Shown here piece by piece: positions 26,221 through 30,423 of a stretch of 64,000 nucleotides of DNA. The DNA is from Carnobacterium divergens DSM 20623 (GTDB taxonomy: Bacteria; Bacillota; Bacilli; Lactobacillales; Carnobacteriaceae), in contig NZ_JQLO01000001.1 of NCBI RefSeq assembly GCF_000744255.1, forward strand, positions 1,860,001-1,924,000, read 5' to 3'. Numbering within the stretch: the stretch's first letter is position 1; each line of letters begins with the position of its first letter. The notes under the pieces were generated by a model that did not search any database, had not been told where the DNA came from, and saw only the letters and a list, made by a program, of their open reading frames with translations. A program made the translations under genes and the position numbers.

Positions 26221-26266
26221 AAAAAAGGATATCTAAAAGCATGTTGCTTAATAGATGTCCTTTTTT
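26221..26266 (+). terminator. Terminator of the proBA operon
   Basis: The arms AAAAAAGGATATCTA and TAGATGTCCTTTTTT pair with one mismatch around a 16-base loop, directly after the proA stop codon. Confidence 0.9.
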
Positions 26267-26349
26267 GGTTTAACATTTAATGGATTAAAGTCTAAATTTA
26301 AATTATTAGAGGATTAGCAAATCTTTTTAGCTTCTATTTAAAAAAAGTT

Positions 26350-26410
26350 AAAAATCGATTGACTACCGATAGTAAAAGCTTTTTTCTTAAAAAAAAGACT
26401 AGCGATTTTT
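26350..26410 (-). terminator. Possible terminator of the DUF697 gene
   Basis: The outer arms AAAAATCG and CGATTTTT on the minus strand enclose a second small palindrome (ACTATCGGTAGT) and are followed by a T-rich stretch. The distance to the stop codon (about 40 bases) fits, but the structure is AT-rich. Confidence 0.45.
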
Positions 26411-26448
26411 ACATTCCTATTTCAAAATACAACTACTTCATTTAACCT

Positions 26449-27138
26449 CTACTTAGTTGACTTTCGAAGAGCTTTAAATAACATTGTATACTGCCCTTTA
26501 AAACTCATAGCTTCTTCAAATATATCTTGTCCATCATTTAACATTTTTACCGTAACCCAACCTAGCGCTTCCGTTATCGTACTCGCAACCGTAGCGTTGA
26601 TTGCTGCACCTGTCACAGTTCCTACCCCTGGAACTAACTTAACTATATTTCCAACGGTACTTCTTCCTAACCCAACAATTATCAATTCTTTTGATAAGCT
26701 TTTCCCTAAACTTTCCGACCATGATTGACCAAATAACTTATGCAGACGAGCCATCATGGTAAGTTGCACTGGGACTAGTAAAAAAGCGTCTGAAAAAGGA
26801 ATGGGAGAACAGCCAATAATAGCTGCTGTTAAGGAAGCTGCATGAATGATTGTATGGCATTTTTTCCTTGTTTGGCTATCGACATCTTTTAGAAACACAT
26901 CAAACTGTCCGTCTAATTGACTCTTACTATTTTCAAGTATTTTTTCAGCCCGTAATTTTGAGCTTTCATAACTTTTAAGAATGACTTTTCCTGTTTTAGA
27001 AGGCATTTTTTTTATTACTTCTGAAAAAAAAGAGTCAAATTCTTTGTCACTCTGTTCTAAAACTTGATTCTCTTCTTTAGGCTCTTTTTCTACTAATTTA
27101 TCTTCATCTATCCTTTTTTTCTTAAAAATTTTTTTCAT
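26449..27138 (-). CDS. DUF697 (YcjF-like) membrane-associated protein
   Basis: The 229-residue protein has a charged, Lys/Glu-rich N-terminal third (1-95) and then the DUF697 domain. The domain shows KCHTIIHAASLTAAIIGCSPIPFSDAFLLVP followed by LVPGVGTVTGAAINATVAS and ends with ITEALGWVTVKML. Two or three hydrophobic helices suggest membrane insertion. DUF697 domains often sit next to or are fused with Era/YcjX-type GTPases, but no GTPase gene is nearby and the function is unknown. ATG 27138 follows AGGAGG. It is monocistronic. Confidence 0.7.
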   Translation of the reverse strand: MKKIFKKKRIDEDKLVEKEPKEENQVLEQSDKEFDSFFSEVIKKMPSKTGKVILKSYESSKLRAEKILENSKSQLDGQFDVFLKDVDSQTRKKCHTIIHAASLTAAIIGCSPIPFSDAFLLVPVQLTMMARLHKLFGQSWSESLGKSLSKELIIVGLGRSTVGNIVKLVPGVGTVTGAAINATVASTITEALGWVTVKMLNDGQDIFEEAMSFKGQYTMLFKALRKSTK

Positions 27139-27578
27139 ATTGAGTTCCTCCTATATCTACTTAATTCGTTCTTTAAAATTTTCTAGTAAAATTAAGTTTT
27201 ATTTTACGCTTTTTTTGTGGTAAAACAAGATCCCCACCTTACATCTCCTATTTTATCACAAAACATAAATTACTCATGTCTTCATGTTTTTATAAGTTCG
27301 CATTCTTATTTAAAAGCAACTCTGAATTTAAATTGCCCTTTCGCTATCTTTTGAATTTACTTGTAACGAACTAGTGGTTTAGTGTTCCTATTCTTTTTCA
27401 AAATAGGGATGAGCATCTTTAGTTTCATTTAATAATTTGAAAAACTAGCTGTGTTCGTTTTATTGAACGATTATTATAGAGTTTTTAAATATGTAATTTA
27501 CGCGTGAATCTAACCTTCGGATTCACGCTATCTTTAGTTATTTTTTATTTGTACACATCTTTTTGAATTCATTTTTTA
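27139..27578. other. Intergenic region without a recognisable gene
   Basis: The 440 bases between the DUF697 gene and the SulP gene show no credible open frame. They hold the DUF697 promoter region, a run of Ts on the plus strand, and one GC-richer inverted repeat at 27502-27528. Confidence 0.5.
27502..27528. repeat. Nine-base perfect inverted repeat
   Basis: GCGTGAATC and GATTCACGC flank a 9-base loop 50 bases downstream of the SulP stop codon. There is no T run on the SulP strand, so a simple terminator is doubtful; the plus strand has a delayed T stretch. Confidence 0.5.
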
Positions 27579-29015
27579 TTATTCCGATAAAAGTAAGTCC
27601 ATCTCATTACGCAATTCAGGGTTATGAATTTCTAAACCAATAATGACTATTTTTCTGTTTTGTTTTTTTGTATTGATAATCAAGGTCTTTAGTGCTTCAA
27701 TTCCAGAATGATCCAATATATGTGAGTCAGATAAATTTATTATAAGTGTCTCGTTATCGTAATCACGAGATTCAAAATAGTGAAGAAACTCATGTGTAGA
27801 AGCAAAAAATAAAGGTCCCCTTACTACAAATACATTCTCCTCTTGAGTGATAGAAATGTTAGCTAATTTTGCCATGAAAATGACAGAACTTAGTAAAACT
27901 CCAACAAAAATACCAATTGCTAAATTATGTGTATAGACAACTAGACTAATGGTCACTAACATAATCATGCTCTCAGTTATTTGAAAAGATCGAATAAGCG
28001 ACAAGCTCTCCCATTCAAAGGTTTCAAATGAAACGGTAATCATAATTCCAATAAGAGCTGCCGTAGGAATTTGTACCATCATATCCTTTAACCCAAAAAT
28101 TAATACTAATAATGCTATTCCCGCAATAAAAGTAGAAAGCCTTTTTCGTCCTCCAGATTTTACATTTATCACAGCTTGCCCAATCATTGCGCAACCTGCT
28201 GGACCACCAAATAACCCTGTCACTATATTGGCAAGACCTTGCGATTTTACCTCTCTTTTACTATCCCCTTTAGTTTCAGTCATTTTATCAACTAATGGAA
28301 TCGTTAAAAGAGATTCTATAAGCCCCACCATTGTCAAAGCAATCGCTGTTGGAAAAATAATTACAAGTGTTTCAATAGTGAATGGAACAGTTGGAAAAGA
28401 CAAAATAGGTACAACTGTAGACATGTTTCCCATATCTCCAATTTTTTGCAAATACTCAGGAAATATCATTGCCACAACGGTCATGATCAGGATAACAATT
28501 AATGCTGGTGGGACTGATTTTATGATTTTTGGAAGTGCGTACATCAGTATAATAGTGAGTGCTACCATAAAATACGTCCATAATGTTTGCCCCGGCAATT
28601 GCTGAATTTGTGCTAAAAAAATCAAAATAGCTAAAGCATTTACGAAGCCAAACATAACAGTTTTTGGAATGAATTTCATTAATTTTTGAATCCCTAGGTA
28701 TCCTAAAATTAGTTGCAAAAGACCCGTTAAGATCGTTGCTGCAATCATATATTCAAGACCATGACTTTTGATTAAGCTAGCCATAACAAGCGCCATCGAT
28801 CCGGCAGCTGCAGAAACCATAGCCGGTCTTCCACCTGTAAAAGAAATTACCAAAATGGTCGTCGCTGAAGCAAATAAAGCTGTCATTGGATTTACCCCTG
28901 CAATAATGGCAAAGCCAACAACTTCTGGAAGTAATGCTATTGAAGAAACTAATCCAGCAAATAAATCATTTCTTATATTTCCTAGCCATTCTTCTTTTTT
29001 TATACTAAATAGCAT
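27579..29015 (-). CDS. SulP-family anion transporter with STAS domain
   Basis: The 478-residue protein has a transmembrane SulP core (about residues 15-370) with the family phrase LLPEVVGFAIIAGVNPMTALFA near the N-terminus and FGGPAGCAMIGQAVIN in the middle. A C-terminal STAS domain follows (about 385-478; LSDSHILDHSGIEAL). SulP proteins carry sulfate, bicarbonate or dicarboxylates; the substrate cannot be assigned. The ATG at 29015 is 13 bases after AAAGGA; an in-frame GTG at 29027 is only 1 base from that site, too close to be used. The gene stands alone. Its upstream region holds the DnaA-box cluster at 29119-29336, which could affect its expression. Confidence 0.88.
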   Translation of the reverse strand: MLFSIKKEEWLGNIRNDLFAGLVSSIALLPEVVGFAIIAGVNPMTALFASATTILVISFTGGRPAMVSAAAGSMALVMASLIKSHGLEYMIAATILTGLLQLILGYLGIQKLMKFIPKTVMFGFVNALAILIFLAQIQQLPGQTLWTYFMVALTIILMYALPKIIKSVPPALIVILIMTVVAMIFPEYLQKIGDMGNMSTVVPILSFPTVPFTIETLVIIFPTAIALTMVGLIESLLTIPLVDKMTETKGDSKREVKSQGLANIVTGLFGGPAGCAMIGQAVINVKSGGRKRLSTFIAGIALLVLIFGLKDMMVQIPTAALIGIMITVSFETFEWESLSLIRSFQITESMIMLVTISLVVYTHNLAIGIFVGVLLSSVIFMAKLANISITQEENVFVVRGPLFFASTHEFLHYFESRDYDNETLIINLSDSHILDHSGIEALKTLIINTKKQNRKIVIIGLEIHNPELRNEMDLLLSE

Positions 29016-29118
29016 GTAACCCGTCACATCCTTTAAAAATTATAGTTAAGTGTCACAACTTTACCATAATATCAAAATTATATTAACTAATAAAGCAACA
29101 CAGCCTCTTAAAAATATT

Positions 29119-29336
29119 TTATACACAGGTCTGTGGGTAACTATTATAAATGAATTTAAGTTATTCACAGAGGTTGTGTATAACTTATCTATTTTTCTGC
29201 AATTAAACCGATTAAAAAAACCGATTTTACGGTTTTAATAACAGCTATACATACTTATGCACATTTTCCTGTGGGTAACTCCTGACTTTATCCACAGATG
29301 CTTTCTGTTTTTGTTGATAACTTCTTTTTTTACACA
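29119..29336. promoter_or_regulatory. DnaA-box cluster (nine sites) upstream of the SulP gene
   Basis: Sites matching TTWTNCACA: 29119-29127 TTATACACA (+), 29161-29169 TTATTCACA (+), 29175-29183 TTATACACA (-), 29255-29263 TTATGCACA (+), 29288-29296 TTATCCACA (+, exact consensus) and 29328-29336 TTTTACACA (+). One-mismatch sites: 29132-29140 and 29270-29278 TTACCCACA (-), and 29312-29320 TTATCAACA (-). Three facing pairs have gaps of 4, 5 and 6 bases. No dnaA, dnaN or rpmH is near, so this is not the usual oriC; a DnaA-titration or regulatory site is more likely. Confidence 0.75.
29217..29236. repeat. Hairpin between the two halves of the DnaA-box cluster
   Basis: AAAACCG, loop ATTTTA, CGGTTTT. 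It splits the boxes into groups at 29119-29183 and 29255-29336. No gene ends here, so a terminator role is unlikely. Confidence 0.5.
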
Positions 29337-29346
29337 ATTATTTCCT

Positions 29347-29395
29347 TAAAAAAAGAATCAAACCCTTCCATAGTGGAAAACGGATCTGATTCTTT
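29347..29395 (-). terminator. Terminator of the amino-sugar-acid catabolic cluster
   Basis: On the minus strand AAAGAATCA pairs with TGATTCTTT, with further pairing inside, followed by five T. It lies about 18 bases after the kdgK stop codon. Confidence 0.85.
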
Positions 29396-29412
29396 CTACT
29401 TTAAATTCTTTC

Positions 29413-30423
29413 TTACCGAATAACGTCCCCTCGGTTTCCCTGACTAAACGCTTCTACCTGCTCTCTTCTCATTAAAGGGCTATCCCCGAAGGTCGTATGA
29501 GCTAGAACAGCATTATTGATTGCAAATTGAACCAATTTTTGATTGTCCCATTTCTCAATCATTCCTGTAATAATCCCTGCAGCATAGGCATCCCCAGTTC
29601 CGATACGGTCATAAATCTGTAATTCCATTGGCTGGCTCAGGGCGAATTCTTGGTTGCTTGTTACAAAACCTCGAATGGATGGAGTAGTTTCTTTTTGACG
29701 AATGGTTCCTGCAAAGTACGTTAATTGATACTGCTTGACAAACATTTGGCTAACATAGGCTAACTGTTCAATGGAACCTTCCAGTTCTGTTGGAATTTTA
29801 AAATCCATCAACTCTGTTAAATCTCTTATACCCCCAATCACAATGTCACAATAGGGTAGAATTGCCTCAAATTGTTGTTTTACCCATTCGTGACTATTGT
29901 GTTTATTTAAACTTGGCCGGTAATTGAAATCAAAACAAACTTTTTTACCCGTCTGATGTGCCAATTCAGCCAATTTAAAAGCTGCTTGTCTAGTCCCTTC
30001 TGACAACATTAACGCAATACCGCAAATATGGATCACCTCACTGTTAGCGACCGCTGTTGCTAAATCATAATCGATAAGGGTACTTTCACCAAAGGAGCTA
30101 GCTAAACGATTTAAATACGTCACTTCCGAAGGCCGATTGCCAAAGCCCATCTCTAAAAAATAAAGTCCCATATGATCGCCTTGATAACGAACGAATTCAT
30201 CTTTGATACCTAGGCTTCGAATGGCGCCTGCTGCTGCTCTTCCTACTTGATTGTCTGGTAAGATGGTTAACATTGATGTCTCGTACCCAAAATGAGATAA
30301 GCTACTCAAAATATTGACTCCTGTTCCGGTAAAGCTTAGATCTACATTATCTGTTTGTTGAATCAATTTATACTGAGGTGGCGTCAAACGCATCATCACT
30401 TCGCCAAATGCTAAAATTTTCAT
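29413..30423 (-). CDS. kdgK: 2-dehydro-3-deoxygluconokinase (PfkB-family sugar kinase)
   Basis: The 336-residue PfkB-fold kinase begins MKILAFGEVMMRLTPP, a start typical of KdgK, and has the C-terminal signature RIGTGDAYAAG with catalytic Asp278. It would phosphorylate 2-keto-3-deoxygluconate to KDGP, the substrate of the aldolase encoded just upstream. It is the last gene of the long cluster, 25 bases after dgaF, with an AAGGAG site and a terminator downstream. The cluster already makes KDGP through DgaE, so the kinase may let a non-phosphorylated ketodeoxy acid enter at the same point. Other sugar-acid substrates are possible. Confidence 0.85.
   Translation of the reverse strand: MKILAFGEVMMRLTPPQYKLIQQTDNVDLSFTGTGVNILSSLSHFGYETSMLTILPDNQVGRAAAGAIRSLGIKDEFVRYQGDHMGLYFLEMGFGNRPSEVTYLNRLASSFGESTLIDYDLATAVANSEVIHICGIALMLSEGTRQAAFKLAELAHQTGKKVCFDFNYRPSLNKHNSHEWVKQQFEAILPYCDIVIGGIRDLTELMDFKIPTELEGSIEQLAYVSQMFVKQYQLTYFAGTIRQKETTPSIRGFVTSNQEFALSQPMELQIYDRIGTGDAYAAGIITGMIEKWDNQKLVQFAINNAVLAHTTFGDSPLMRREQVEAFSQGNRGDVIR

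Follow-up and report, generated by a model that had tools for sequence, protein, structure and literature searches.

A conserved cluster of facing DnaA-box pairs in the kdgK–proBA interval, a likely DnaA-titrating site outside oriC

The intergenic DNA at positions 29119–29336 of the window (the whole 64-kb stretch analyzed here; genome 1889119–1889336) carries nine DnaA-type boxes, six of which match TTWTNCACA, including one exact TTATCCACA, with the other three one mismatch away from TTATCCACA. We observe the boxes, their clustering beyond chance, the conservation of the cluster and its spacing in one chromosomal interval, its independence from the neighboring gene, and the presence of a partner on the opposite chromosome arm. 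Judged from these sequence features and by analogy with Bacillus subtilis, the region is more probably than not a selected chromosomal DnaA-box cluster outside oriC that titrates the DnaA predicted to bind it, as the B. subtilis clusters are thought to do. In this process, DnaA would bind the boxes, and the cluster, together with a second one between gor and marR, would be duplicated some time after oriC fires. The extra copies would then hold back free DnaA, and the lowered level of free DnaA would delay re-initiation and steady the timing of replication. We infer all three of the elements of this model: binding by DnaA, titration through that binding, and initiation timing as the output.

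Conservation was assessed in three genomes that belong to different species of one genus: the genome analyzed here, its close relative G001, and G002. Boxes were defined by the consensus TTWTNCACA, with sites one mismatch from TTATCCACA as a weaker class, and TTATNCACA served as the pattern for genome-wide counts. With these definitions, every box listed in an initial annotation of the region was recovered (Table 1). The nine boxes strictly alternate in orientation (+ - + - + - + - +), and mapping confirmed that they include three facing pairs, with CACA ends inward and gaps of 4, 5 and 6 bp. When nine boxes were laid out at random, at least three facing pairs with a gap of 4 to 6 bp appeared in 0.08% of layouts, in a simulation made after the pattern had been seen. 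Three further sites in the same intergenic region are one mismatch from TTWTNCACA and were left uncounted, 29117+ and 29326+ because they overlap better boxes and 29372- because it lies outside the cluster. The flanking genes are those first named, SulP (PF00916 with STAS) on one side and the PfkB-family kinase gene kdgK on the other. The initial annotation also described a hairpin at 29217–29236 that splits the boxes into two groups. This hairpin is predicted in our genome (-6.3 kcal/mol, with 5 of 200 shuffles equally good), but it is not predicted beyond chance in G001, where 144 of 200 shuffles were equally good, and the alignment places a 12-base gap at the site in G002. We rejected it as a working part of the cluster because it is not conserved in either relative, and the inverted repeat itself probably has no such role. 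A direct repeat, AAACCGATT, is present in two copies at window positions 29205–29226, and both copies read AAATTGATT in G001, a matching change.

Table 1. Features of the kdgK–proBA cluster and its flanks, in window coordinates.
Feature	Position	Strand	Class	Sequence, arrangement and relatives
SulP/STAS transporter gene	27579..29027	-		PF00916 + STAS; variable neighbor, not found in G001 or G002
DnaA box 1	29119..29127	+	TTWTNCACA	TTATACACA; faces box 2 across a gap of 4 (pair A); TTATTCACA in G001, TTATCCACA in G002
DnaA box 2	29132..29140	-	one mismatch	TTACCCACA; consensus TTATCCACA in both relatives
DnaA box 3	29161..29169	+	TTWTNCACA	TTATTCACA; faces box 4 across a gap of 5 (pair B); 20 bp from pair A here and in G002
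DnaA box 4	29175..29183	-	TTWTNCACA	TTATACACA; TTATGCACA in G002; degenerate TTGTGCACA in G001
Small inverted repeat AAAACCG/CGGTTTT	29217..29236			between the two box groups; no conserved hairpin
DnaA box 5	29255..29263	+	TTWTNCACA	TTATGCACA; faces box 6 across a gap of 6 (pair C); TTATCCACA in G001, TTATCAACA in G002
DnaA box 6	29270..29278	-	one mismatch	TTACCCACA; identical in G001, TTATCCACT in G002
DnaA box 7	29288..29296	+	TTWTNCACA	exact TTATCCACA, 9 bp from pair C; TTTTACACA at that distance in G002
DnaA box 8	29312..29320	-	one mismatch	TTATCAACA; TTATTAACA in G001; no equivalent box in G002
DnaA box 9	29328..29336	+	TTWTNCACA	TTTTACACA; not conserved in G001
PfkB-family kinase gene (kdgK)	29413..30423	-		cluster on kdgK 3' side in 3/3 genomes: adjoining in two, 5.7 kb off in G002

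The expectation that chance would give far fewer boxes was borne out. The rest of the window holds 11 TTWTNCACA sites, which corresponds to ~0.04 expected per 218 bp. Across the genome, a single contig of 2,619,222 bases, TTATNCACA occurs 134 times (70 + 64) versus 103 times for a reversed control pattern. The excess of single sites is therefore mild, and clustering is what stands out. With all 134 sites mapped, a comparison with oriC of the kind first proposed found only four places with at least four TTATNCACA sites per 250 bp: the kdgK–proBA cluster and oriC with five each, and the rlmH and gor–marR clusters with four each. None of 20,000 random placements of the sites reached four, the maximum being three per 250 bp, and similar clusters are thus not common by chance. 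Two other groups of boxes resembled clusters and were not counted as comparable: one (genome 1963019–1963408) is inside a DEAD-box helicase reading frame, and the other (genome 2075422–2075534), which follows an L7/L12-like reading frame on its downstream side, has three TTWTNCACA sites in ~110 bp. A DnaA domain was matched at genome 2321489–2321974, ~432 kb from the cluster, with boxes flanking dnaA on both sides. With oriC set at 2322500, the cluster lies 433 kb, or 59.6 degrees, away from it. Linkage to dnaA, dnaN or rpmH, as at oriC, is absent. Reading by eye the translations of all open reading frames of at least 80 aa at 22–38 kb of the window revealed no replication gene, in agreement with the initial annotation.

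The cluster sits between kdgK and proA in all three genomes, with the other genes of the interval differing among them. A DNA search with the cluster matched G001 at 73% over about 205 bases and left G002 unmatched; there the cluster was recovered by the facing-pair pattern instead. Boxes are kept in both relatives. The kdgK side is unchanged in G001, where ABC-transporter and other genes stand in place of SulP and its neighbor. In G002, kdgK lies 5.7 kb to one side in the same relative orientation and proA ~2.3 kb to the other, and the pairs have the same order and orientation relative to kdgK as in our genome. The dnaA match is ~410 kb from the cluster in G001; in G002 the distance is ~815 kb. 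The differing genes around a retained cluster indicate that genes have come and gone in the kdgK–proBA interval while the cluster stayed. In our genome, the proBA–kdgK interval (window 26221–29412) contains SulP and a DUF697 gene. The corresponding genes in G002 read as a uracil-DNA glycosylase, two-component genes and a metallo-hydrolase.

Selection on the boxes was tested in a MAFFT alignment with gaps uncounted, comparing eight boxes with G001 and the seven alignable boxes with G002; box 9 (29328) was left out because it is not aligned as a box in G001. Between our genome and G001, identity was 62/64 at the specified bases of TTATNCACA, 3/8 at the free fifth base, N, and 79/129 at other bases. 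The corresponding values against G002 were 50/56, 2/7 and 42/103. Specified bases differed from other bases with Fisher p values of 1.1e-8 (G001) and 1.3e-9 (G002), and from N positions with p values of 8e-5 and 1e-3, respectively. Pair A of G002 is box-like by construction, as the search pattern fixed it, and without this pair the counts are 35/40 for specified bases and 1/5 for N. Constrained specified bases with a free N are the signature that selection for DnaA binding would be expected to leave. Some boxes have nevertheless drifted from the consensus, namely boxes 4 and 8 in G001, and 3/7 alignable boxes in G002 mismatch TTWTNCACA. Identity to G001 is far higher in neighboring DNA (98.2% for kdgK, 97.6% for proA) and in the gor–marR intergenic region (97.2%) than in the cluster region. 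Because the flanks are so much closer than the cluster, either our genome or G001 probably received an older cluster allele together with its island.

The spacing of the boxes is conserved as well. Pairs A and B span 65 bp in both our genome and G002, and in both pair C is followed by a + box after 9 bp. The gap set of 4, 5 and 6 recurs in G002, support that is only partly independent because the search pattern required one such pair. Among 246 Lactobacillales genomes (64 genera), an even draw from a larger group, the exact pair A–pair B pattern was found in two, both in this genus, and G001 misses it by one base in box 4. The arrangement was not found outside the genus in this set and is therefore not generally required. 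Facing consensus pairs with a gap of 3 to 8 bp occur in our genome only at the kdgK–proBA cluster and at gor–marR. A simple facing-pair pattern matched 6/18 genomes of the family, at four places in our genome and three in G001, each at kdgK or gor–marR, with zero and one match, respectively, for the reversed control. Outside the genus, this pattern matched one place apiece in three genomes: two facing pairs between ywlC-like and prmC-like genes, as named by reading translations, in G016 (L038:1378-1523), a location that corresponds to a further known DnaA site of B. subtilis; a sequence that reads as a terminator hairpin in G014; and, in G007, a match with only one further box in its 2.3-kb locus. 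The facing-pair layout of the cluster is unusual. A looser two-pair pattern retrieved 25 loci from GTDB species genomes, 11 at oriC (located by tblastn) and nine beside rlmH, all nine in Enterococcus, and therefore such pairs mark DnaA regions. The other five comprise three in Lachnospiraceae/Clostridia, one in Treponema (~5 kb from rpmH) and one in Bacteroidetes. No Carnobacterium locus was retrieved, in a scan from which records of or near our genome may be omitted and which is silent on spread within the genus. In three Lachnospiraceae/Clostridia loci (L047, L055 and L056), a triple of DnaA boxes with a box I to III distance of 25 bp, a spacing close to that of DARS, lies upstream of a gene that by eye resembles a ribosome-hibernation factor. 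Contigs from a viral collection (L072:7154-7222, L075:2085-2153 and L076:8297-8366) carry 13 DnaA boxes with at most one mismatch in ~370 bp, with repeated facing pairs.

The partner cluster lies at genome 188007–188117 (L005:2508-2618), between a gor-like pyridine-nucleotide-disulfide reductase gene and a marR gene. It is 485 kb, or 66.6 degrees, from oriC, on the opposite arm from the kdgK–proBA cluster. Its three-box core has the order + - -, with a gap of 4 followed by another gap of 4 and 26 bp from box I to box III. This cluster is conserved in G001, where the copy differs solely inside the first gap and lies ~540 kb from the dnaA match, if the 2,702,442-base contig is a closed chromosome. 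In G002, the marR protein has distant matches only. The remaining cluster lies upstream of rlmH, at 2256873–2257209 of our genome (L008:2374-2710), and we take it to be the counterpart of the B. subtilis yydA site. At least four TTATNCACA sites occur within 700 bp upstream of rlmH in 16/16 scored genomes of the family; the start was not recognized by the motif used in the other two of the 18, which were left unscored. Like the kdgK cluster, the rlmH cluster consists of DnaA boxes away from oriC. However, it spans the family and Enterococcus, in contrast to the single genus in which we found the kdgK cluster, and its copy in our genome has no facing pair with a gap of 4 to 6 bp.

An alternative to titration is that the cluster is a DARS-like site, in which facing boxes would position a pair of DnaA molecules head to head, releasing ADP and recharging DnaA, with one such site on each arm. 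We regard this as unlikely. Escherichia coli DARS1 is presumably located between bioD and uvrB, and DARS2 between rppH and mutH. In the sequence of E. coli K-12, we measured in both a facing pair with CACA inward and a gap of 5 bp, then a tandem box after a gap of 3, with 26 bp from box I to III, and this order agrees with the available part of a published account (PMC5742627). The kdgK–proBA cluster shares the facing, CACA-inward boxes, with gaps that are short and not fixed (4, 5 and 6 here versus 5 in DARS1 and DARS2). In models described in the accessible portions of two papers, head-to-head dimerization of ADP-DnaA on the opposing boxes I and II leads to ADP release (PMC8682772, PMC5742627). 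The gor–marR core shares both the + - - order and the 26-bp distance with DARS1 and DARS2, and the two clusters, at 60 and 67 degrees from oriC, would provide one site per arm. However, the kdgK–proBA cluster differs from DARS in that its pairs have no box III beside them: no third box was found 24–28 bp from any pair in the three genomes, the best candidates having two mismatches. Furthermore, triples of nearly equal spacing, mostly 25 bp from I to III, occur at other loci in a sample that is biased because it was fetched by the facing-pair pattern, and DARS-like geometry is therefore not specific. The DnaA of some Firmicutes reportedly exchanges ADP quickly unaided, which also counts against this reading. 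According to the available text of a 2026 review, B. subtilis lacks DARS1, DARS2 and IHF, and it is unknown whether that species has regulators of the interconversion or balance of ADP- and ATP-bound DnaA (PMC13220808). It is doubtful that the genus has a two-site system, formed by the kdgK–proBA and gor–marR clusters, that would act like DARS1 and DARS2 by changing the nucleotide state of DnaA. If it did, a Gram-positive bacterium would have a DNA element that recharges DnaA.

Bound DnaA might instead control transcription of SulP or another neighbor, as at sda or ywlC in B. subtilis, and coupling to SulP had been raised in the initial annotation. The cluster is upstream of the SulP start codon, with the nearest box ~92 bp away, and in the part of the source available to us sda of B. 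subtilis is activated by DnaA, which also appears to act as a repressor of several genes (PMC4447404). Against this possibility, both relatives keep the cluster and searches of them found no SulP, and in G001 the two nearest open reading frames of at least 90 aa, one on either side, have their 3' ends toward the cluster. SulP homologs elsewhere also lack a cluster, as none of 18 match loci from 12 genomes, with up to ~1.5 kb of flank each, has more than two TTWTNCACA sites. Four promoter-like sites were predicted in window 28900–29500, near the shuffle mean of 2.4, and all four are on the + strand with none on the SulP strand. We rejected coupling to SulP on the basis of clusters without the gene and genes without the cluster, and consider transcription control of any neighbor distinctly unlikely.

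That the palindromic pairs bind another regulator and merely resemble DnaA boxes is quite improbable. In its favor, dimeric regulators typically bind facing repeats separated by a short gap. However, a fixed dimer site would not have a gap that varies from 4 to 5 to 6 in a single cluster, constraint falls on the specified positions of TTATNCACA and leaves N free, and a similar pair pattern retrieved oriC and rlmH sites elsewhere. A secondary replication origin, remnant or active, for example of an integrated element, would account for AT-rich surroundings and a TTATNCACA count per 250 bp equal to that of oriC, but we rejected it as very improbable: no initiator gene was read among the open reading frames at 22–38 kb of the window, 72,556 plasmid records gave no match, GC skew has no clear sign change (negative in 5/7 4-kb steps before 28 kb and 9/9 after), and three genomes, each of a different species, carry the site in synteny.

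Titration of DnaA by a selected cluster outside oriC is therefore the reading that we favor. DnaA-box clusters are known in Bacillus, and we found no published description of the kdgK–proBA cluster or its paired layout in the titles and abstract openings of the open-licence literature, where it is apparently undescribed. The cluster would offer a concrete, testable example of DNA sites that control DnaA in a lactic-acid-type bacterium, and it has both a partner site on the other arm and a clear evolutionary signature. It also sets a widely shared Bacilli cluster, at rlmH, apart from genus-specific clusters with a defined facing-pair layout. This separation allows one to ask if box geometry, beyond box number, decides between titration and DARS-like recharging.

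The initial annotation likened the region to the B. subtilis clusters and to E. coli datA, and the first of these comparisons is apt. The six clusters deleted in B. subtilis by Okumura in 2012 are said to have been ywcI/vpr, gcp/ydiF, trmE, ywlC, yqeG/sda and yydA. As described in the portions of two sources available to us, deleting all six DnaA-box clusters outside oriC led to early initiation and restoring one gave partial relief (PMC5295017, PMC13220808). Titration is disputed even in this species, however, in the accessible parts of the same sources (PMC5295017, PMC13220808): one review holds that a cluster of significant effect has yet to be identified there (PMC5295017), and about tenfold overproduction of DnaA occurred without over-initiation (PMC13220808). 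The strongest regions in vitro, in the available part of the report, were oriC (two), ywcI/vpr, gcp/ydiF, trmE, ywlC, yqeG/sda and yydA, and the clusters had an affinity for DnaA similar to that of oriC (PMC4447404). The kdgK–proBA cluster shares with these clusters several DnaA boxes in intergenic DNA far from oriC. It is likewise between gene ends, as is gcp/ydiF, a strong cluster between two gene ends with a summit at 628 kb in the excerpts consulted (PMC5295017, PMC4447404, PMC13220808). It differs in its chromosomal interval and may also differ in its geometry, in which boxes of alternating orientation make up facing pairs 4, 5 and 6 bp apart. Its neighbors (proBA, SulP and kdgK) match 0/8 of the strongest B. 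subtilis regions as given in the available text (PMC4447404). The cluster is thus of the same kind as the B. subtilis clusters and orthologous to none of the eight strongest regions. The datA site of E. coli is also a non-coding cluster of DnaA boxes away from oriC, but its essential boxes share one direction and are accompanied by an IHF site, as far as the source could be consulted (PMC5742627), whereas the kdgK–proBA boxes alternate. This shared direction makes datA a poor structural match, and the facing-pair geometry of the cluster resembles the core of DARS more than it does datA.
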